Source: Betaproteobacteria bacterium GR16-43 (GTDB lineage: Bacteria; Pseudomonadota; Gammaproteobacteria; Burkholderiales; Usitatibacteraceae). From it: a DNA stretch of 64,000 nucleotides. The notes beneath the pieces were generated by a model. It was not told the DNA's origin. It was given only the letters and a program-made list of their open reading frames with translations, and ran no database searches. The first letter of the stretch is position 1; the number at the start of each line of letters is the position of its first letter. Positions 9,471-57,511 of this stretch are shown here, piece by piece. Position numbers and translations under genes: made by a program. Location: positions 4,526,001-4,590,000 of the forward strand of contig CP019169.1 of assembly GCA_001953215.1 (NCBI GenBank), written 5' to 3'.

Positions 9471-12400
9471 ATGAAGCCTTCCATCCGGCCCCAAAACCTG
9501 GCGCTCGTCACCCTCCTCGGCGGGGTGGCGTTGAGCCTTGCCGCGTGGTACTTCGTCGGCCGGGAAGCGGAGCGCCAGGCCGAGGCGGATTTCGTGAACC
9601 AGGCCAACCTCGCCGCGAGCCTGGTGGACCGGCGGATCCAGCGCTACGTGGACCTGCTCTACGGCCTCGAAGCCCTCGCCTCCCACGGCCACGAGCTCAC
9701 GCGGCGCGACTTCAACCAGCACGTGACGGCGCTGCAGGCCGCGCGGCGCTTCCCCGGCATCCAGGCGACGCAATTCGTGCGCCGCGTGCCGGCCGACAAG
9801 CTCTCGAAGTTCATCACCTCGGTGCGCACCGATGCTTCGCTCGTGCCCGGCGGCTACCCGCGCTTCGACCTGCGGCCCGCGGAGAAGCGCGACGAGTACT
9901 GGGTCATCGATTTCGTCGAGCCGATGGTGGGCAACGAGGCCACGTTCGGCCTCGAAGTGCACAGCCGGGGACCGGCGCGGCAAGCCGTCGAGCGCGCGCG
10001 CGATACGGGCGAACCCGTCGGCACCGGCCGCTATCGCCTCGTGCAGGAGAAGGGCGCCAGCTATGGCCTCGTGATCTACCTGCCGGTCTACGAAGGCATC
10101 ACCCCGCGCTCCGTGGAGGGCCGCCGCGAGCTGGTCTCGGGCTGGGTGACCGTGGTGCTGCGCATCGACGATGTCTTCTCCGACGTGCTCTCGAGCCCCG
10201 TGTTCACCGGAACGCGCCTCGCGATGCACGACCTGGGCGCCGCCCACTGGGCGGGCCGTGCGGTGCCGGGGCCGGACACGGTCTTCTTCAACTCCTCGCC
10301 GTTCGCCGAAGCCTCCACGCTTTCGCTCTTCACGCGCGGCCTGCACCACGACGTGGACCGCGAGATCGCCGGGCGCCTCTGGCGCCTCTCGTTCGACGCC
10401 GATCCGGCTCCCGCGCAAGGCTGGTGGCAGCCGCTGCCCATGCTCACGCTGTGCGCCGGCCTCATCACGAGCCTGCTGGTCTACGGCATCCTGCGGGCCA
10501 TCGCCAGTTCTCGCACCGAAGCGCTCGATACAGCGAGCCGCGCCACCCGCGACCTGCGCTCGCAACTGTCGTTCAACCAGCAGTTGCTCGAGGCCATTCC
10601 CTACCCGGTGTATTTCAAGAACGCGGCCGGCCGCTACCTCGGGTGCAATCGCGCGTTCGAGGAGGACTACGGCATTCCGCGCGACCAATTCGTCGGCCTC
10701 ACGCCCTACGACATCCTCCCCAAGGAGCATGCGGACCGGATGGTGGAAGACGACCGCAAGCTGCTCGAGACGGGCGGCGTGCATTCGCTCGAGACGCGAG
10801 CCCCGCGCCCGAAGGACGGCGCGATGCGCGACACGATCTTCAGCAAGTCCACGTTCACGAATGCCGACGGTAAAGTGGCCGGCATCGTGGGCGTGGTGGT
10901 GGACATCACGGATCGCAAGGCGCTCGAAGCGCGCACGGAAGAGAGCCACGAGCAACTGCGCGCGATCGTGCAGGCCACGCCGCTCGCGATCATCGTTCGC
11001 GACTTCGACAACCGCATCAGCCAGTGGAACCCCGCGGCCGAGCGGATCTTCGGCTGGAAGGCCTCCGAGGTCCTCGGCACGGCCACCTCCATCGTCCCGC
11101 CGCACCTGAAGCAGGAGATCGCGGGCATGCGCGAGCGCGCCCAGGCCGGCGAGCTGATCCTGATCCAGGAGACGCAGCGCATGGCGCGCGACGGGTCGCT
11201 GATCGACGTCTCGGTGGCCATCGCGCCGCTGCGCGACAGCGCGGGGCGCGTCTACGCCACGATGGTGACCATCGCCGACATCCGCGAGCGCAAGGAAGCC
11301 GAGCGCGCCCTGGGCGAGAGCGAGGAGCGCCTGAAGCTCGCGATGGAGGCCGCCCACATGGGCCTCTGGTACTGGGACGCGGCCAGCGACGATTTCACCT
11401 ACTCCGACGGTCTGAACGTGCTCTTCGGGCGCCCCGCCAACTCGCCGCACGTCGACTACCGCGCCCTGCAGGACGTGCTGCACCCGGACGACCAGGGCCT
11501 GTGGCACGCGACCATCCGCCACGCGGTGAAGGACGGGCAGGATTTCCAGATCGACTACCGCCTCGTCTACCCCGACGGCAGCGTGCACTGGATCACCAAT
11601 CGCGGGCAGGTGCACCGGGGGCCCGACGGCCGCGCGCTGCGCCTGGTGGGCATCGCGATGGACATCACCGAGAGGAAGCTCGCCGAGCAGCGCATCGCCC
11701 ACATGGCGCACCACGACGCGCTCACCGGACTGCCCAACCGCGTGCTGCTGCACGACCGCATCCGCCAGGCGATCGCGCAGGCCCATCGCGCGGGCGGCGA
11801 AGTGGCCGTGCTCTTCATCGACCTCGACCGCTTCAAGACCATCAACGATTCCCTCGGCCACCCGCTGGGCGACCGGCTGCTGCAGTCGGTGGCGAGCCGC
11901 CTGCTCGTGTGCCTGCGCGAAGGCGACACCGTCTCGCGCCTGGGCGGCGACGAATTCGTGATCGTGATTCCCGGGATGTCGGGGGCCTCCGGCGCCGCGA
12001 GCGTGGCGGGCAAGATCCTCGAGGTGCTCGCGAATTCGTTCCACCTGCAGGGGCACGACCTGCACGTCTCGGCCTCGGTCGGCATCGCGCTCTATCCGTC
12101 CGACGGCGACGACGCGGATACCTTGATGCGCCACGCGGATACGGCGATGTACCACGCGAAGGACGCGGGCCGCGCCAACTACCAGTTCTTCACGCCGCAC
12201 ATGAACGTCGCCGCACAGCAGCGGCTCACGCTCGAGAACGCGCTGCGCCGCGCGCTCGACAACAACGAGTTCGAGCTGTACTACCAGCCGCTCTACGACC
12301 TGCGCGACCGCTCGATCACGGGGCTCGAGGCCTTGCTGCGCTGGAACCCGCGCGGAGGCGGCGAACCGGTGCTGCCCTCGCAGTTCATCCCCGCGGCCGA

Positions 12401-49362: not shown

Positions 49363-51216
49363 ATGCCTCCACCGGCACCACCCCCGCAGTCGTTTCGCGA
49401 GCGCCTCGGCGCCCTGCGAAACCTCCCGCCGTTCCTGAAGCTCGTCTGGGAAACCAGCCCCGGCATCGCCACGGCCGAGGGGGTGTTGCGCTTGCTGCGC
49501 GCCTTGCTTCCCGTGGCCGCGCTCTATGTCGGTGCACTCATCATCGACGAAGTGGTGCACCTCACGCAGGTCCCCTCGCCCGGCACGACGCATCGCGAAT
49601 GGCTGCACAGCGGGTTGGTCGATCACCTGCTCCTGCTGCTCGGCATCGAGTTCGGGCTCGCGGTTCTCTCGGACGTCCTGGGCCGCGGCATCTCGCTGCT
49701 GGATTCCCTCCTCGGAGAACGGCTCAGCACCACGACCAGCGTGCGGCTGATGGAACATGCGGCCACGCTCGACCTCGAGGACTTCGAGGACAGCGAGTTC
49801 CAGGACCGCCTCGAGCGGGCGCGCACACAGGCCGCCGGGCGCACGGGCCTGATGACGCAGCTCTTCGGCCAGGCGCAGGACGTCGTGACGATCGTGAGCC
49901 TTGGCGCGGGGCTGGTCGCCTACGCGCCGTGGTTGATCGTGCTGCTGGCCGTCGCGTTGATCCCCGCGTTCCTCGGCGAGATGTATTTCAACGCGCGGAC
50001 GTACTGGATGAACTACCAGCGCGCTCCGGAACGCCGCGAGCTGGATTACCTGAGGCAAGTCGCGGCCAGCGCGGATACCGCGAAGGAAGTGAAGATCTTC
50101 GGCCTCAACGGCTTCCTCATCGAGCGCTACCGGGAACTCGCCACGAGTTTCTTCAAGGCCAATCGCGAGATCGCCATCCGCCGCGCGGGCTGGGGCGCCG
50201 TGCTCACGACGATCAGCACGATGGCCTACTACTTCGCCTACGCGTACATCGTGTGGCGAACGCTGCATGGCGACTTCACGATCGGCAACCTCACGTTCCT
50301 CGCGGGATCGTTCCTGCGCCTGCGCGGGTTGCTCGAGCAGTTCCTCTCGGGCTTCTCCGCCGTCGCCGGGCAGGCGCTCTACCTCGACGACCTCTTCTCG
50401 TTCTTCGAGATCCGGCCCGAGATCGTTTCACCGAAGGACCCGAAGGCGTTTCCCCATCCGATTCGCGAGGGTTTCACGTTCGAGAACGTGGGCTTCCAGT
50501 ACCCGGGCGCCGAGCGCTGGGCGGTGCGAAACCTCTCGTTCCACTTGCGGGCGGGCGAAGTGCTCGCACTCGTCGGCGAAAACGGCGCGGGCAAGACCAC
50601 GCTCGTGAAGCTGCTCGCCCGGTTGTACGACCCCGACGAAGGCCGGATCCTGCTCGACGGCCACGACCTGCGGGAGTACGACCTCGCCGAACTGCGCCGC
50701 AACATCGGCGTGATCTTCCAGGACTTCGTGCGCTTCCACCTGAGCGCGGGCGACAACATCGCGGTCGGGTTGATCGAGGCTCGCGGCGACCAGGCGCGCA
50801 TCGAACAGGCGGCCCAGCGAAGCCTCGCCGACGAAGTGATCGCGAAACTGCCCGAGCACTACAAGCAACTGATCGGCCGGCGCTTCAAGACCGGCGTGGA
50901 TCTCTCCGGCGGCGAGTGGCAGAAGATCGCGATTGCCCGCGCCTACATGCGCGATGCGCAGGTGTTGATCCTGGACGAACCCACGGCGGCCCTCGATGCG
51001 CGCGCCGAATTCGAAGTCTTCCAGCGCTTCAAGGAGCTCTCGACGGGCAAGACCGCCGTCCTGATCTCGCACCGGTTCTCGAGCGTGCGGATGGCCGACC
51101 GGATCGTGGTGCTCGGCGACGGCCGCGTGGAAGCGACCGGCACGCACGCGGAATTGCTCGCCCAGGGCGGGCGGTACGCGGAGCTCTTCGAGTTGCAGGC
51201 CGCCGGGTACCGCTGA
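49363..51216 (+). CDS. ABC transporter, fused permease and ATP-binding protein (exporter type)
   Basis: The 617-residue half-transporter has six membrane helices (about 30-330) and a nucleotide-binding domain. Walker A is GENGAGKTT, the Q-loop region is IGVIFQDFVRF, the signature is LSGGEWQK, Walker B is LILDEPTAALD and the H-loop is ISHRFSS. The layout is that of MsbA/lipid-A or peptide exporters, which work as homodimers. It follows the GT-C-like gene closely. TTTTTTT at 51217 onward may help end transcription, but no stem precedes it. Confidence 0.93.
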   Translation: MPPPAPPPQSFRERLGALRNLPPFLKLVWETSPGIATAEGVLRLLRALLPVAALYVGALIIDEVVHLTQVPSPGTTHREWLHSGLVDHLLLLLGIEFGLAVLSDVLGRGISLLDSLLGERLSTTTSVRLMEHAATLDLEDFEDSEFQDRLERARTQAAGRTGLMTQLFGQAQDVVTIVSLGAGLVAYAPWLIVLLAVALIPAFLGEMYFNARTYWMNYQRAPERRELDYLRQVAASADTAKEVKIFGLNGFLIERYRELATSFFKANREIAIRRAGWGAVLTTISTMAYYFAYAYIVWRTLHGDFTIGNLTFLAGSFLRLRGLLEQFLSGFSAVAGQALYLDDLFSFFEIRPEIVSPKDPKAFPHPIREGFTFENVGFQYPGAERWAVRNLSFHLRAGEVLALVGENGAGKTTLVKLLARLYDPDEGRILLDGHDLREYDLAELRRNIGVIFQDFVRFHLSAGDNIAVGLIEARGDQARIEQAAQRSLADEVIAKLPEHYKQLIGRRFKTGVDLSGGEWQKIAIARAYMRDAQVLILDEPTAALDARAEFEVFQRFKELSTGKTAVLISHRFSSVRMADRIVVLGDGRVEATGTHAELLAQGGRYAELFELQAAGYR

Positions 51217-51233
51217 TTTTTTTCGCGGCCGGC

Positions 51234-51265
51234 TGAATCCGGCGCCCCCGTGCGGAACGTAGTCC
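51234..51265 (+). promoter_or_regulatory. ECF-sigma-type promoter before the sigma-region-2 gene
   Basis: TGAATCC (51234-51240), a 17-base spacer and CGTAGTCC (51258-51265) form a bipartite element that is repeated exactly, with equal spacing, at 52064-52095. The -35 part resembles TGATCC sites of ChrR-linked ECF sigma factors. The ATG lies three bases after the -10 part, so the message would be leaderless. Confidence 0.65.
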
Positions 51266-51268
51266 GCC

Positions 51269-51595
51269 ATGGACCGAGAAGTGCCCGCAACTTCGCCCGA
51301 AGAGCTCGTGCAGCTGGTCGCCGCCGTCGCGCGCGGCGGAGAAGCTGCCCTGCGTGAACTTTTCGACGCGACCGTCCGGCACGTCCACGCAGCGGCGTTC
51401 CTCCTCACCGGTTCGCACGATCGGGCGGATGCACTGGTGGCCGAGGTGTACTTCAAGGTCTGGAGCGGCGCGACGAGCTACGACCCCGCGCGCGCACCGG
51501 TGATCCATTGGCTGTACCACCTCACGCGCACCCTTGCGGAGGAAGCCGGAACCGGCGTCTACTATTCGCAAAATGGCGAAGGAAAAACCAGTTGA
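51269..51595 (+). CDS. Sigma-70 region 2-only protein
   Basis: The 108-residue protein aligns by eye with region 2 of ECF sigma factors (ELFDATVRHVHAAAF, EVYFKVWSGATSYDPARAPVIHWLYHLTR). It closely tracks the same part of the complete sigma factor encoded at 54066-54716. It has no region 4, so it cannot bind a -35 element alone. It ends in a 15-residue tail, and its TGA overlaps the TTG start of the cupin gene. It could be a decay product or a partner that occupies the anti-sigma protein or core polymerase. No Shine-Dalgarno sequence is present. Confidence 0.75.
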   Translation: MDREVPATSPEELVQLVAAVARGGEAALRELFDATVRHVHAAAFLLTGSHDRADALVAEVYFKVWSGATSYDPARAPVIHWLYHLTRTLAEEAGTGVYYSQNGEGKTS

Positions 51596-52053
51596 ACCCT
51601 GACGAGCGCACGATGCGGGAACTCCTCCAGTCGCTGGATCCTTCCGCGCTCTCCGAGGAGCGCGTGGATTCGATCTACCGGCGCATCGCCACGCGCATCC
51701 GCGAGCACGAAGCGGGACGCCAGGGAGTGACCACGGTGCGAGCCTCGCATGACGCATGGAGGCCGCTCCTGCCCGGCGTGGAGATGAAGGTGCTCTTCGA
51801 CGACGGCACGTCCACCACGTGGCTCGCGCGCATGAACGAAGGGGCCACGCTTCCGGCGCACGACCATCCCGGCGACGAGGAATTCATGATCCTCGAAGGC
51901 CGCGTGCGTTTGGGCGAACTGGAGTTGGCCGCCGGCGACTACCAGCACGTGCCGCGCGGCACGCGCCACGAGCACTGCGTCGCGTTGCTGCGCACCGTCG
52001 CGCTGCTGCGCTCGCCCTCCGCGATGTGCGTCTTCGCCGGAAAGGGTGCGTAG
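51592..52053 (+). CDS. ChrR-like cupin, putative anti-sigma protein
   Basis: The 153-residue protein has a helical N-terminal segment (MRELLQSLDPSALSEERVDSIYRRI) and a C-terminal cupin. Its metal-binding motifs are PAHDHPGDEEFMILEGRV and HVPRGTRHEHC. This order matches ChrR proteins, which hold ECF sigma factors inactive with a zinc-binding N-terminal domain and sense singlet oxygen or related stress through the cupin. The usual HxxxCxxC zinc motif is missing from the N-terminal part. The TTG at 51592 overlaps the preceding stop (TTGA) and has GAAGGA upstream; the ATG at 51613 is the alternative. Confidence 0.75.
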   Translation: MNPDERTMRELLQSLDPSALSEERVDSIYRRIATRIREHEAGRQGVTTVRASHDAWRPLLPGVEMKVLFDDGTSTTWLARMNEGATLPAHDHPGDEEFMILEGRVRLGELELAAGDYQHVPRGTRHEHCVALLRTVALLRSPSAMCVFAGKGA

Positions 52054-52063
52054 CCGCATGCGT

Positions 52064-52095
52064 TGAATCCGGTTCCGTCGATGGGCGCGTAGTCC
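52064..52095 (+). promoter_or_regulatory. ECF-sigma-type promoter before DUF3034
   Basis: The second exact copy of TGAATCC-N17-CGTAGTCC lies 25 bases before the DUF3034 ATG at 52121, allowing a leader of about 20 bases with GGAG as a ribosome binding site. Confidence 0.65.
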
Positions 52096-52120
52096 GGCGT
52101 CCCATCCTTGGAGTCGATTC

Positions 52121-53023
52121 ATGGAACGAGCAGCCTGCATTCGCGCCGCCGCAGTCGTCGCGGCGCTCACATCGACCTGCGCGTTCGCGCAGGGCTTCAC
52201 CCGGCCCGACCAGGGCAAGCTCACCGCCACGGGCGGCGTCACGCAGATCGAAGGCGCGGGCGGTGGCGGCCTTACGCCGTGGGCGCTCATCACGGGCTAC
52301 GGCAGCCGCGACAGCTACGGCGGCAACGCCCACTCCACGTTCGTCGACCTCAGCGACTACTCGCTCGGCACGTACGGCGTTGCCGCGGGCTTCCACGACC
52401 GCTTCGAAGTCTCGTTCTCCACCTGGCGTTTCAAGGGCACCGACGGCGCGCTGGACGGCGTGAAGATCGAGCAGGACGTGGTGGGCCTGAAGCTGCGCGT
52501 CGCGGGCGACGCGGTGTACGGCCAGGACTCGTGGCTGCCGCAAGTCGCACTCGGCGCGCAGTTCAAGCGCAACAAGGGCATCACCGGTCTCGAAGGGCTG
52601 GGTGTGTCGAAGCCCACGGATCTCGGTGCCAAGGACAACAACGGCACCGACTACTACGTCGCCGCGACCAAGGTCTTCCTCGACCAGAGCCTGCTCGCCA
52701 ACGTGACCGCGCGCTTCACCAAGGCCAACCAGTTCGGCCTGCTGGGATTCGGCGGCGATCTCCAGGACAAATACAAGCTGCGCTTCGAGGGCTCGATCGC
52801 GTATCTCGTCACTCGCAAGCTCGCGGTGGGCGCCGAGTATCGCGCCAAGCCGCACAACCTCGGCGTCGATGACGAAGGCTCCGCCAAGGACGTCTTCATC
52901 GCCTGGTTTCCCACCAAGAACTTTTCCGTCACCGCGGCCTACGTGGACCTCGGCACGATCGTGAATCCGTTCGTGCCCGGCAAGCAGCGCGGCGCCTACC
53001 TCTCGGGCCAGATCGGCTTCTAA
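52121..53023 (+). CDS. DUF3034 family outer-membrane-like protein
   Basis: This 300-residue exported protein has a signal peptide ending STCAFAQ. The body consists of amphipathic beta-strands with a final aromatic residue (SGQIGF), the pattern of outer membrane beta-barrels. GKLTATGGVTQIEGAGGGGLTPWALITGYG is typical of DUF3034 proteins, whose function is unknown. It is the first gene of a unit with an exported hemoglobin and a cupredoxin, under a putative ECF promoter. Confidence 0.85.
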   Translation: MERAACIRAAAVVAALTSTCAFAQGFTRPDQGKLTATGGVTQIEGAGGGGLTPWALITGYGSRDSYGGNAHSTFVDLSDYSLGTYGVAAGFHDRFEVSFSTWRFKGTDGALDGVKIEQDVVGLKLRVAGDAVYGQDSWLPQVALGAQFKRNKGITGLEGLGVSKPTDLGAKDNNGTDYYVAATKVFLDQSLLANVTARFTKANQFGLLGFGGDLQDKYKLRFEGSIAYLVTRKLAVGAEYRAKPHNLGVDDEGSAKDVFIAWFPTKNFSVTAAYVDLGTIVNPFVPGKQRGAYLSGQIGF

Positions 53024-53034
53024 GGAGACATCCC

Positions 53035-53463
53035 ATGAACTTCCGCAATTTCATCGCTTCGCTCGCCGTGCTCGGCAGCCTCGCCGCCCCGGCCTTCGCG
53101 GACGACGAGTTGTACACCAAGCAATTCGGCGGCAAGCCGGGCATGGCCAAGATCACCCACGAGATGATGGTGGGCGTGCTGGCCGATCCGCGCATCAAGG
53201 ACTTCTTCGCGAAGACGGACATCGAGCGCCTCGAGTTCCTGCTCGCCGAGCAGTTCTGCGAGCTGGTGGGAGGGCCGTGCAAATACAGCGGCCGCGACAT
53301 GAAGACCGTGCACCGCGGCGAGAAGATCAACACCGCGCACTTCAACTTCCTCGCCGAGCACCTGCAGGTGGCGATGGAGAACAACGGGGTGCCCACCTGG
53401 GCGCAGAACAAGCTGATCGCGAAGCTGGCGCCGATGCATCGCGACGTGACGGAGCCGCGATGA
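53035..53463 (+). CDS. Exported group I truncated hemoglobin
   Basis: This 142-residue protein starts with a clear signal peptide (cleavage near PAFADDELY), which is unusual for the mostly cytoplasmic truncated hemoglobins. The globin part shows the expected order: the E-helix region LLAEQFCELVGGPCKYSG with Cys75 and Cys82, then the likely proximal His93 in MKTVHRGEKI, and HFNFLAEHL. Group I members bind oxygen and nitric oxide. A periplasmic location would suit detoxification or sensing outside the cytoplasm. AAGGAG precedes the ATG. Confidence 0.9.
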   Translation: MNFRNFIASLAVLGSLAAPAFADDELYTKQFGGKPGMAKITHEMMVGVLADPRIKDFFAKTDIERLEFLLAEQFCELVGGPCKYSGRDMKTVHRGEKINTAHFNFLAEHLQVAMENNGVPTWAQNKLIAKLAPMHRDVTEPR

Positions 53464-54113
53464 GGACCGCGCCTTGGTTCGCAAGGGTCGGCCTCGCCGC
53501 GGCCGCTTCCTTCGCTGTCCTCGGCGGCCAGGCCGCCGAGGTGGAGTTCGCCGCGTTCGACAAGGAGGGCAAGCCGCTGCCGAACGTGATCGTCTCGGCG
53601 ATGCCCACCACCGGCGCGCCGCCCGCGAGCGGAGCGAAGACCGAGGTCGTGGGCCAGAAAGGCTGGGAGTTCACGCCTTACGTGACGGCCGTGCGCGTGG
53701 GCTCGAAGGTCCAGTTCCCGAACCTCGACCGCACGACGCACCACGTGAAGTCGTTCTCACCCGCGAAGGAGTTCGAATTCTTCCTCGCCGCGGACAAGGG
53801 CGCTTCGCCCGTGATCGAGTTCGACAAGGCCGGCGCCGTGGTCGTGTATTGCACGCTCCACGACTGGATGCGCGCCTACGTGTACATCGTCGATACGCCG
53901 TGGTTCGCGAAAGCCGCCGAGACGGGCATGGGCAAGCTCACGGACCTGCCGAACGGAACCTACAAGTTGACCGCGTGGCACCCCGACCTGGGCTCGTTCG
54001 GAACGCCGCTCACGCAAACGGTGACGCTGAAGGACGGGGCGGCGAAGGTGAAGTTCGACTTCGCGCTAGTCCCCCGCAAGCCCCGCATGCCGAAGGTCCT
54101 TCCGCAAGCCTAG
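53460..54113 (+). CDS. Cupredoxin-like periplasmic copper protein (methylamine utilization protein-like)
   Basis: The 217-residue protein has a signal peptide (GGQAAEVEF) and a single cupredoxin domain. Candidate type I copper ligands are His94 or His95 (TTHHVKSF), Cys131, His134 and Met137 (YCTLHDWM). A carboxypeptidase-regulatory-like beta-sandwich follows (LPNGTYKLTAWHPDLG). It probably transfers electrons or binds copper in the periplasm. Its ATG overlaps the hemoglobin stop (ATGA). Its 3' end overlaps the convergent sigma gene by 48 bases. Confidence 0.85.
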   Translation: MRTAPWFARVGLAAAASFAVLGGQAAEVEFAAFDKEGKPLPNVIVSAMPTTGAPPASGAKTEVVGQKGWEFTPYVTAVRVGSKVQFPNLDRTTHHVKSFSPAKEFEFFLAADKGASPVIEFDKAGAVVVYCTLHDWMRAYVYIVDTPWFAKAAETGMGKLTDLPNGTYKLTAWHPDLGSFGTPLTQTVTLKDGAAKVKFDFALVPRKPRMPKVLPQA

Positions 54114-54716
54114 CAACGTCCTGCGGATCAGCGTCTTCACGGTGCCCAGCGGCATGTTGAACTGGGACGCGATCTCGCTGTGGGACTGGCCCTGGACGAA
54201 CGCCAGCGCGACGAGCTGGCGCTGGAGCGGCGGCAGCGCGCCCAACGCCGCTTGAACGGCGCGGCCCTCCTGCATCGACAACACCGATTCTTCCGGCGTT
54301 GGTCCGCAGTCCACATCGTTCCCGGGATGGAGGTCCCCGTACGGAATGGCCGGGTCGCCGCGACGCAGGAGATCGAGGACGCGGCTGCGGACGATGGTGG
54401 TGAGGTACGCCATGACGTTGCCGCGGGCCGGGTCGTAGCTGCGCGCCGTGCGCCAGACCTGGAAGTAGGTGTCGGAGACCGCTTCTTCCGCGGTCTCGCG
54501 GTTGCGCGCGATGCGGTAGGCAACGGCGTGCACGCCATGGACGGTCTCGCGATAGAGCGCTTCCATCGCGGGCTCGTCGCCCTCGCCGATCCGGCGGATG
54601 AGCCCTTCGAGGCGTTGCAGCACCTCCGGGCCGGTCGGGCTCGGCCTGGCGGGGCCGAGCACGTCGTTCGCGGCTTGCGGCTCCGGGCCGCCAGCCTCAC
54701 AGGCATTCAGTTGCAT
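54066..54716 (-). CDS. ECF-type RNA polymerase sigma factor
   Basis: The 216-residue protein has sigma region 2 (ALYRETVHGVHAVAYRI, DTYFQVWRTARSYDPARGNVMAYL) and region 4 with a helix-turn-helix (ALPPLQRQLVALAFVQGQSHSEIASQFNMPLGTVKTLIRR). It is related to the region-2-only protein at 51269-51595 and is the best candidate to read the paired TGAATCC-N17-CGTAGTCC elements. Upstream on its own strand, CATCC-N15-CGTATC is only a loose match to that element. GAGGGGG precedes the ATG. Its last 48 bases overlap the cupredoxin gene, so the opposing transcripts could interfere. Confidence 0.88.
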   Translation of the reverse strand: MQLNACEAGGPEPQAANDVLGPARPSPTGPEVLQRLEGLIRRIGEGDEPAMEALYRETVHGVHAVAYRIARNRETAEEAVSDTYFQVWRTARSYDPARGNVMAYLTTIVRSRVLDLLRRGDPAIPYGDLHPGNDVDCGPTPEESVLSMQEGRAVQAALGALPPLQRQLVALAFVQGQSHSEIASQFNMPLGTVKTLIRRTLLGLRKDLRHAGLAGD

Positions 54717-54793
54717 CGCGGAATCCCCCTCGATCACGCTGCTTCGGGGAGATACGTTCGAGCGCCGCTCTGGATGGTAAAGACGGCTTGTAC

Positions 54794-55237
54794 CTAGCGC
54801 TCCATGACCCGCTTCAGCTGGTCCAGCGCCCGGCGGGAATTGCGGGTGAGGATCCACTTCATCAGCCAGGTGTCCAGCGCCTTCCAGGGGAAGTAGCGCG
54901 AGCGGAACTCCATCACCCGCGTGAAGCGGCAGCCCTCGCCCCGGGGCTGGATGTCGTAGCGGATCAGCGCCACGCCCTCGCCCGAATCGGTGGAGATGGC
55001 CCACGACTGGGGCGCGCTGCACTCCACGACCTCCCACGTGGTCGCGAACCGCTTGAGGCCGACGCGGATGTCCTCGCGCACGGTCTCGCCCAGGCGGATC
55101 GGGCGGTCCGGCACGGCGGAGACGGAGCTCGTCGCCGGATGCCAGGTGTGCCAGAGCGTGGGAGCCGTCACGTAGTTGAAGACGTCCGGCGGCGCCCGGT
55201 CGATGTCGACGACCGTCTCGATACGGACAGGCGCCAT
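54794..55237 (-). CDS. SRPBCC (START/Bet v1-like) domain protein
   Basis: The 147-residue protein is a polyketide-cyclase-like SRPBCC domain. It starts with the usual strand PVRIETVVDIDRAPPDVFNYVTAP and ends with the long helix WLMKWILTRNSRRALDQLKRVM. Such domains bind lipids or other hydrophobic ligands. The ATG at 55237 matches the family start. An in-frame ATG at 55288 would sit back-to-back with the start of the divergent peptidase gene. It is upstream of, and on the same strand as, the sigma factor gene, with a gap of 77 bases. Confidence 0.75.
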   Translation of the reverse strand: MAPVRIETVVDIDRAPPDVFNYVTAPTLWHTWHPATSSVSAVPDRPIRLGETVREDIRVGLKRFATTWEVVECSAPQSWAISTDSGEGVALIRYDIQPRGEGCRFTRVMEFRSRYFPWKALDTWLMKWILTRNSRRALDQLKRVMER

Positions 55238-55286
55238 GACGTCCAGGTGTCGCTCGCCGGCGCGCAGGGACGGTATGCTGTGGTCC

Positions 55287-56639
55287 ATGAAAAAACTCCT
55301 TCTTATAGCCTGCACTGGTGCGGCCCTGACCGCCCAGGCAGGTCAAATCGACGAAATTGTCGGCCAGGTTTCGGCCCAACGGATCGAGATTAACATTCGC
55401 AAGCTGGTTTCGTTCGGGACGCGCAATTCTTTGTCCGACACGGAATCGCCCACGCGGGGCATCGGAGCCGCCCGCCGCTGGATCCTCGAGGAGATGAAGC
55501 GCTGCGGTGGCGATCGCCTTCAGGTGGCGTTCGACGAACATCTCATCGAATCGGGCGCGCGCGTGCCCAAACCGACGAAGTTCGTGAACGTTGTAGCCAC
55601 ATTGCCCGGCACCCAGGCCGAGAGCCGCGACCGCGTCTACGTGGTGAGTGGCCACTACGATTCGATGCCCTCCTCCCCGATCGACGGCGAGAAGGACGCG
55701 CCCGGCGCCAACGACGACGCTTCCGGCACCGCCGTCTCGATGGAGCTCGCGTGCGTGATGTCGAAGTACAAGTTCGACGCCACGCTCGTCTTCATGACGG
55801 TGGCCGGCGAAGAGCAGGGCCTCCTCGGCGCGACGGGCTACGCGAAGGCCGCACGCGCGAAAGGCGTGAACATCGCCGGGATGATCACCAACGACATCGT
55901 CGGCAACACGCGCGCGCCCGACGGCACCGTGGACCGCTCGCGGCTTCGGTTGTTTGCCCAAGGGGTCCCGGCGGTGAAGACGCTGCCCGACGACGTGGTC
56001 GCGGCCCTGCGCACGAGCGGCGAAAACGACCTGCCCACGCGCCAGCTCGCCCGGCGCATCCAGGAGGCCGCGACGCAGTACGTGAAGGACTTCAAGGTCG
56101 AGGTGATCTGGCGGCGCGACCGCTTCCTGCGCGGCGGCGATCACTTCCCGTTCCTCGAGGAAGGCTACCCGGCCGTGCGCTTCACCGAACCCGTCGAGGA
56201 TTGGCGCCACCAGCACCAGGACGTGCGCGTCGAGAACGGCGTGCAGTTCGGCGACCTGCCCGAGTTCGTGGATTTCGGCTACGTGGCGAACGTGGCCCGC
56301 GTGAATGCCGCGGCGTTGGCTTCGCTCGCGCTCGCGCCGGGCGTGCCGCGCGAAGTCGAGATGGAGAACCTGCGGCTGGAGCAGGACACCACACTGCGCT
56401 GGCAAGCGAGCCCCGAGCCCGACGTGGCCGGCTATCGCATCGTGTGGCGCGAGACCACGGCCCCGACGTGGCAGAACTCGAAGGACGTGGGCAACGTGAC
56501 GCGCTACACGCTCACGGGCATCTCGAAGGACAACTTCACCTTCGGGCTGCAGGCGTACGACCGCGACGGGAATGTTTCGGTGGCGGCGTATCCGAAGCCG
56601 TATCGGCCCGTCCCGTCGCCCGTGCCCGCTTTGCGCTAG
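55287..56639 (+). CDS. Secreted M28-family zinc aminopeptidase with FN3-like C-terminus
   Basis: This 450-residue protein has a signal peptide (ALTAQAGQ). The M28 peptidase domain's zinc ligands and catalytic acids appear in order: SGHYDS, GANDDASG, AGEEQGL, ITNDIVGN and a late His in HQHQD. It therefore binds two zinc ions and should release N-terminal residues or act on other peptides outside the cytoplasm. A fibronectin type III-like domain closes the protein (VAGYRIVWRETTAP, NFTFGLQAYDRDGN). It has no close Shine-Dalgarno. The TAG stop shares CTAG with the convergent gene. Confidence 0.9.
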   Translation: MKKLLLIACTGAALTAQAGQIDEIVGQVSAQRIEINIRKLVSFGTRNSLSDTESPTRGIGAARRWILEEMKRCGGDRLQVAFDEHLIESGARVPKPTKFVNVVATLPGTQAESRDRVYVVSGHYDSMPSSPIDGEKDAPGANDDASGTAVSMELACVMSKYKFDATLVFMTVAGEEQGLLGATGYAKAARAKGVNIAGMITNDIVGNTRAPDGTVDRSRLRLFAQGVPAVKTLPDDVVAALRTSGENDLPTRQLARRIQEAATQYVKDFKVEVIWRRDRFLRGGDHFPFLEEGYPAVRFTEPVEDWRHQHQDVRVENGVQFGDLPEFVDFGYVANVARVNAAALASLALAPGVPREVEMENLRLEQDTTLRWQASPEPDVAGYRIVWRETTAPTWQNSKDVGNVTRYTLTGISKDNFTFGLQAYDRDGNVSVAAYPKPYRPVPSPVPALR

Positions 56640-57511
56640 GGCTGCGTGGGGAGCGTGCGTCCGTTGATCGTGACGAACGCGTAGTCATCGGGGAAGGATC
56701 CCTTCGGCCGCGCGCTGCGATAGCTCGCCTCCCACGCCATCAGCATCCCCGGCACCACGGGCTGCTCGGTCCAATAGATCGGGCCCAGCATGAAGCGCAC
56801 CTCGCCGTCGGGCGCGGGGCACTTCGCTTCGATCGAAGTCCACTTGAGATCGCCGCTGCGGCTCGTGTCCCACGCGCTGCCGAAGAGGTTGCCGACGAAT
56901 CCCCACTGCCTCATGCGAGCCCAGCGCGTGAAGAAATCCGCGGGGCACGCGGCGACGATCTCCACCAGCGACCACGACGGCTGGCCGTACGCGAACTCGC
57001 CGCCCGCGAGATGAACCGGCTCCAGCGCCGCGTACTGCCCGATGTATTCGTTGCGCCCCTTGCTGGGCGACTTGGGCCCGGCGATGCCGTATCGCGGGAC
57101 CGTGACCGAGTGGTACTTGCCGGAGACGCGAAGCTCGAATTTCGCGCCCACCCTGCGGCCGAGGAGTGCCATGCGCAGCTCCGGCGTGCCGAACTGGCCC
57201 CAGAGATCGGTGTTGGGATCGGGTTCGCGCCCGGTCCACACCCACGCTTCCTCGCCACGTTGCGGGTGCTCGGTCTTGTCCGCATTCACCACGGTGCGCA
57301 GGTAGCGCAGGCGCACGAGGTCACCCGCATAGACGACCGGCCCCGTTCCCGCTGCGACCGCGACCGTGCTAATCGGCACGCCACGACCCTCGAGCGCGGG
57401 AGCCGGCGGTTCCGCGACCTCCATCGCCTTCCAATTCTCCGGGGTCACGTTCTCCCGGAAGTTGTCGCAGCCGGCGAGGACCAGGATTGCCGCGAGGGCC
57501 GTTGCTCTCAC
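56636..57511 (-). CDS. Lipoprotein with possible FKBP-like domain
   Basis: The 291-residue protein starts at a GTG (57511) that overlaps the stop of the acetyltransferase gene (GTGA). It has a lipoprotein signal (AAILVLAGC, lipid on the cysteine). Text near residues 50-150 (GPVVYAGDLVRLRYLRTV, RRVGAKFELRVSGKYHSVTVPRYGIAG) resembles the strands of an FKBP-type fold, but the isomerase pocket cannot be confirmed. The C-terminal part is Trp- and Tyr-rich with no known motif. It ends the minus-strand run that begins with the synthase gene. Confidence 0.6.
   Translation of the reverse strand: MRATALAAILVLAGCDNFRENVTPENWKAMEVAEPPAPALEGRGVPISTVAVAAGTGPVVYAGDLVRLRYLRTVVNADKTEHPQRGEEAWVWTGREPDPNTDLWGQFGTPELRMALLGRRVGAKFELRVSGKYHSVTVPRYGIAGPKSPSKGRNEYIGQYAALEPVHLAGGEFAYGQPSWSLVEIVAACPADFFTRWARMRQWGFVGNLFGSAWDTSRSGDLKWTSIEAKCPAPDGEVRFMLGPIYWTEQPVVPGMLMAWEASYRSARPKGSFPDDYAFVTINGRTLPTQP

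Follow-up and report, generated by a model that had tools for sequence, protein, structure and literature searches.

Two promoter-like sites before a truncated sigma–cupin gene pair and a DUF3034 operon probably belong to one conserved ECF promoter class

Two intergenic regions of this locus carry the same pair of boxes at the same distance from each other, one ahead of a frame that encodes only sigma region 2 and the other ahead of a DUF3034 gene, which raises the question of whether both are promoters of one ECF class and which sigma factor would read them. The initial annotation had proposed that such identical boxes are unlikely by chance and point to a single regulon that the nearby ECF sigma factor would read. 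In coordinates of the window (the whole stretch of DNA analysed, 64 kb), the features concerned are the following:

51234–51265, forward strand: putative ECF promoter 1, -35 box TGAATCC at 51234–51240, spacer of 17 nt (51241–51257), -10 box CGTAGTCC at 51258–51265
51269–51595, forward strand: sigma region-2-only frame of 108 aa (Sigma70_r2, 5.4e-06, and no other match)
51592–52053, forward strand: ChrR-like cupin gene (Cupin_7, 7.4e-16), starting at TTG 51592 or ATG 51613
52064–52095, forward strand: putative ECF promoter 2, -35 box TGAATCC at 52064–52070, spacer of 17 nt (52071–52087), -10 box CGTAGTCC at 52088–52095
52121–53023, forward strand: DUF3034 protein (PF11231, 5.7e-93), first gene after promoter 2
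53035–53463, forward strand: truncated-haemoglobin-like protein (PF01152, 3.6e-14)
53460–54113, forward strand: putative cupredoxin-like protein, named from its sequence, with a YCTLHDWM stretch; no family scored above its cut-off
54066–54716, reverse strand: full-length ECF sigma factor of 216 aa, regions 2 and 4
54753–54778, reverse strand: possible third, weaker site, ACCATCC-N15-CGTA, 36 nt before the ATG of the full-length sigma

Both boxes and their spacing were found upstream of the two genes exactly as first described, and the judgement that chance would hardly produce such a pair holds as well: the pattern TGAATCC-N14-20-CGTAGTC (14 fixed bases) has two matches in the window and none in 100 shuffled versions, and these two are the only matches in the whole genome of 4,806,848 bases, where the reversed control gives none. 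The exact string with a gap of 16–18 occurs in 12 of 200 genomes of the order, source genome counted, and 8 of the 11 foreign matches fall within open frames at least 200 aa long and look like chance; the 14-base string was therefore rejected as a conserved motif. That it can arise by chance elsewhere would favour a mere resemblance of two unrelated intergenic sequences, an explanation rendered extremely remote by the shuffles, by the uniqueness of the pair in the genome, by the position of both copies before genes and by their first and second ranks with a matrix trained on foreign sites (see below). The spacers of the two promoters are identical at 8 of 17 positions and their 60-base flanks at 13 and 15 of 60, so the pair does not stem from a recent duplication of a longer segment. 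Behind promoter 2, a GGAG at 52110 precedes the DUF3034 ATG at 52121. At promoter 1 the ATG at 51269 lies only 7 bases past the CGTA, so that the region-2 frame would be leaderless or would start further in, for example at GTG 51308. A consensus scan of 51150–55300 found no sigma-70 promoters or terminators.

The class to which the boxes belong was sought in other genomes with profile A2, whose 12 rows are the full-length sigma of the window and 11 relatives. The best 80 of 155 confirmed A2 relatives, mostly Beta- and Gammaproteobacteria by record titles, served as the sample of sigma loci, and all pairs of 4-mers with gaps of 14–20 were counted within 350 bases before the sigma match, leaving the window motif unused. 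The top dyad, ATCC-N16-CGTA, stands before the sigma gene in 51 of these 80 foreign loci and was not found there in the other 29, while the best pair of five shuffles reached 12. Judged by the sites compared, the conserved part is this core and not the exact string of the window. The 55 distinct foreign sites chosen by the dyad, whose core is hence fixed by choice, read TGCATCC-N16-GCGTA, with the T, G and C of the -35 box in 44, 47 and 51 of 55 sites, respectively, and a G preceding CGTA in 52. Scanning the window on both strands with spacers of 15–17, the matrix built solely from these foreign sites placed promoter 2 first (20.7 bits) and promoter 1 second (16.5 bits); the third site, at 56659 (+), scored 15.6 bits and lies antisense within a gene, and all others scored at most 10.5 bits. 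Dyad discovery in other genomes and the foreign-trained matrix thus agree with the earlier reading of both sites as promoters, and by these ranks they are probably the -35 and -10 elements of one conserved ECF promoter class. Within the class the pair departs from the usual form in its -35 box (TGA versus TGC) and in its spacing, for which the earlier figure of 17 is right at both window sites, the class usually having 16.

Two observations concern this spacing. The third-ranking site of the window, at approximately 56656–56686 (+) with 56659 as the position equivalent to ATCC, reads TGCGTCC-N17-CGTAGTC; it has the -10 box and spacing of the pair, is antisense to the gene that contains it and has no obvious forward-strand gene downstream. 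Locus L224 (MAG BP4.bin75) has sites at 9876 (+), 12084 (+), 11571 (−) and 10697 (−), and three of these four, belonging to sigma, DUF4331 and DUF3034, have a spacer of 17 as in the window, which suggests that the spacing may shift with the sigma factor.

The spread of spacers from 15 to 17, wider than expected for one sigma factor, might instead suggest that a transcription factor binds at the boxes. This is very improbable here, for neither box repeats the other, the motif stands before sigma genes, and the ATCC and CGTA cores with the 16-base gap match published ECF11 promoters, some of them with mapped starts (PMC4336711, PMC5507510). The boxes have many counterparts: T[GA][CA]ATCC-N15-17-CGTA gave 102 matches in 1.61 Mb (100 loci, some overlapping) versus 2 for the reversed control. 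When the 200 genomes of the order were grouped by their A2 sigma match, with the limit of the strong group set by ourselves in a gap of the E-values, TGCATCC-N16-CGTA averaged 3.1 matches per genome in the 13 genomes with the strongest sigma (source genome included), 2.4 in the 45 with a weaker one and 0.74 in the 142 without one at E 1e-25; for the strong group versus none, the Mann-Whitney p is 5e-5, both the counts and this value being uncorrected for genome size and ancestry. At least one match is present in 128 of the 200 genomes, so a single match means little.

As to the reader of the promoters, the frame directly behind promoter 1 ends without region 4, the next gene starting at once. 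Lacking the region that binds the -35 box, it would leave this task to the full-length ECF sigma encoded at 54716–54066 on the reverse strand, which is the likely reader. Both sigma regions are present in this protein (PF04542, 1.2e-15; PF08281, 8.8e-14), which scores 74 bits with TIGR02937 versus a cut-off of 42.9 and matches A2 at 3.8e-75, though it is itself one of the 12 A2 rows, being 35–46% identical to the others. The ACCATCC-N15-CGTA site before its gene ranks tenth in the window (9.5 bits) and, by its position, is only suggestive as the promoter of the sigma gene itself.

A reader elsewhere in the genome would be compatible with real promoters of this class if the neighbouring sigma had drifted to a target of its own. 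Two further sigma genes of the source genome match A2 (1.1e-52 and 1.0e-26, the neighbour reaching 3.8e-75, with 16 of the 63 candidates scored), and the full-length sigma has a weak site of its own and a long branch (1.55) in the region-2 tree. Nevertheless, of the source-genome matches listed, none comes closer than the neighbour to the sigma–cupin family, whose members adjoin the motif, and we regard it as distinctly unlikely that another ECF sigma is the main reader.

The region-2-only frame shows several signs of erosion. Compared with the residues invariant in A2, it keeps W88, D95, R98 and R110 and has changed Q86, R89, G99, R112, L114 and D115; its GC3 is 0.74 versus 0.87–0.95 across seven genes nearby, and codon-position bias is missing from its last 18 codons. 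We read it as a decaying sigma gene whose promoter would still serve the cupin. In the region-2 tree (76 columns) one of 14 inner branches is well supported, so the tree does not resolve the origin of the truncated copy, which sits on the longest branch (2.93). A functional region-2 protein, competing for core polymerase or titrating the cupin and thereby exerting negative feedback on the regulon, could account for the open frame, the recognisable region 2, the high-scoring promoter of the class and the overlap with a possible cupin start; the changed invariant residues, the low GC3, the apparently non-coding last codons and the length of the branch make it quite improbable.

In the congeneric genome G022 a full sigma gene adjoins the cupin gene, and DUF3034 has no match. 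This genome was also considered as a case of the intact operon with its promoter and was set aside: its best match (11/14, spacing 16) lies just behind an in-frame ATG of the sigma gene, so it may be coding sequence and was not counted as a promoter.

The pairing of sigma and cupin runs through nearly all of the sampled family. A cupin gene is found in 79 of the 80 sigma loci and directly after the sigma gene, within set limits, in 77 (the exceptions being L189, L198 and L215). The window has the family sigma and the promoter class, with the cupin beside the truncated copy and about 2 kb from the intact sigma. A sigma paired with a cupin-containing partner is also the arrangement of ECF11 systems, represented by RpoE–ChrR of Rhodobacter sphaeroides, Shewanella RpoE2 and P. 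syringae PSPTO_1043, which have the ATCC-N16-CGTA core in common with the family described here. The HxH..E site of the C-terminal cupin is shared too, being present as HDHPGDEE in the translation of the window cupin and as HxH(x3-5)E in 75 of 77 partner cupins. ECF11 promoters themselves are given as TGATCC-N16-CGTA, known from mapped starts in Shewanella and from binding peaks in P. syringae (PMC4336711, PMC5507510), whereas the -35 box of the family is one base longer (TGCATCC or TGAATCC) and the window spacing also differs; membership of ECF11 by promoter was rejected on these outer -35 bases and the spacing.

The partners differ as well. ChrR holds its sigma via an N-terminal zinc domain with His6, His31, Cys35 and Cys38 as ligands (PMC6852236), whereas the zinc anti-sigma motif HxxxCxxC is absent from the translation of the window cupin and from 76 of its 77 relatives, the one exception having it right where a stop-to-stop frame begins. 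Against the ChrR cut-offs of 300 and 124.5 bits, the window cupin scores 26.3 and 25.3. A bare cupin, which has no more than a short stretch at its N-terminus and lacks a zinc anti-sigma domain, might still regulate the sigma, and the locus would then form a three-part circuit of an intact sigma standing apart, a cupin with the region-2 fragment as decoy or adaptor, and one promoter class; we consider such a circuit unlikely. The question raised is how a cupin that lacks the ChrR zinc motif could control a sigma factor.

Searched against solved structures, the sigma profile finds the SigK chain 4nqw best (1.3e-45) and R. sphaeroides RpoE 2q1z next (2.9e-37). The closest model to the full-length sigma of the window is likewise that of SigK (NCBIfam PRK09646), at 117.4 bits versus a cut-off of 226, and membership of SigK was rejected on this score. 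SigK of mycobacteria is ECF19; its -35 box is CCATCC, and its -10 box differs from that of the class described here. The partner of SigK is RskA (PMC7509140), whereas that of the present family is a cupin. The window system probably works like an ECF sigma–cupin system, and is here assigned neither to ECF11 nor to SigK.

The arrangement that we favour, and hold to be quite probable, is that the two boxes are of one ECF class, that the intact sigma (54716–54066, reverse strand) reads both and that the cupin and DUF3034 operons are co-regulated. The ATCC core of the -35 box and the CGTA core of the -10 box would be the elements of this promoter class, and the intact sigma would bind core RNA polymerase. 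Transcription would begin just past the CGTAGTC box, at about 51269 and 52099–52101, yielding a predicted first transcript with the truncated sigma and the cupin and a predicted second one with DUF3034, the truncated globin and the cupredoxin-like protein. In relatives the first operon is an intact sigma–cupin pair, probably self-activating, and the cupin probably holds the sigma or reports a redox or metal signal. In the source genome the cupin-adjacent sigma has lost region 4, and the nearby full copy would carry its role, so that the cupin and DUF3034 operons would stay under the same promoter class. The signal may be an envelope stress of redox, NO or metal type.

The proposal of one regulon under the nearby ECF sigma is supported indirectly: this sigma belongs to the family whose upstream regions carry the motif, the motif is more frequent in genomes that have the family, and it also precedes some DUF3034 genes of relatives. 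The proposal needs refining in that the reader would not be the region-2 gene and the class extends beyond this locus. Within the 80 loci, DUF4331 genes occur in 22, of which 18 have ATCC-N15-17-CGTA upstream, ferritin-like genes in 6 (core motif upstream in 3) and DUF3034 genes in 8, with the core motif directly upstream in one (L224), so a motif before every DUF3034 gene is not general. Loci L134, L136, L142 and L151 likewise have DUF3034 genes with the motif upstream; in L141 a globin gene has it. DUF3034 is present in 26 of the 200 genomes of the order; scanning 28 short DUF3034 loci gave the motif in 6, the window's own included, and in several of these it is not upstream of DUF3034. In some other loci, relatives of the cupredoxin-like protein are encoded close to DUF3034 and globin relatives. 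The source genome has a second DUF3034 locus (L149, G000:C1:2503000-2515000). Relatives of the globin and of the cupredoxin-like protein lie there on the strand opposite the DUF3034 gene, and the locus gave no good site of the promoter class (best 9/14). DUF4331 gave no match in the source genome, in a search whose control was silent too.

In the portions of the open-access literature available, no description of the sigma–cupin family or of TGCATCC-N16-CGTA and no link of DUF4331 or DUF3034 to a sigma factor was found, DUF3034 being mentioned once in one unrelated review; the letters TGCATCC-N16-CGTA do not occur in PMC10880074 or PMC3817407. A concrete promoter is now proposed for a widespread ECF sigma–cupin pair, and DUF4331, DUF3034, ferritin-like proteins and a truncated globin are linked to a single promoter class, so that their function can be tested.

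The initial annotation had expected further copies of the motif before stress genes, which was borne out in part. The exact TGAATCC...CGTAGTC string occurs in the source genome at the two window sites only, and the relaxed forms TGAATCC-N16/17-CGTA and TGCATCC-N16/17-CGTA have six sites each, the reversed controls having none. Eight of these 12 sites lie 7–83 nt before an apparent gene start, an estimate as the starts were chosen by eye; three fall within coding sequence and have no gene downstream, and one is ambiguous. Besides the two window sites (7 and 29 bases from the start), the genes following the eight sites encode a ferritin-superfamily-like protein (83), a cytochrome c/P460 protein (73, the site overlapping the end of the preceding gene), a cytochrome-like protein (53), a DUF2282 bufferin-like protein (14; DUF2282 above and the bufferin model below cut-off), a glutathione S-transferase-like protein (15) and a DUF6916 protein (47). 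Several of the eight sites also lie in long frames that were taken as spurious (L234, L235, L236, L240, L241). These gene contents suggest a regulon that would respond to redox, NO or metal stress at the envelope.

Next to the full-length sigma of the window, an SRPBCC (Polyketide_cyc2) gene at 54797–55315 on the same, reverse strand ends about 80 bases before the sigma gene, and an SRPBCC-like gene also lies downstream of a motif site in locus L218. In locus L240 (1501–1802; G000:C1:1799339) TGCATCC-N16-CGTA stands 14 bases before the DUF2282/BufA2-like gene and directly after what appears from its sequence to be a zinc-finger anti-sigma gene; bufferins may share the promoter class.
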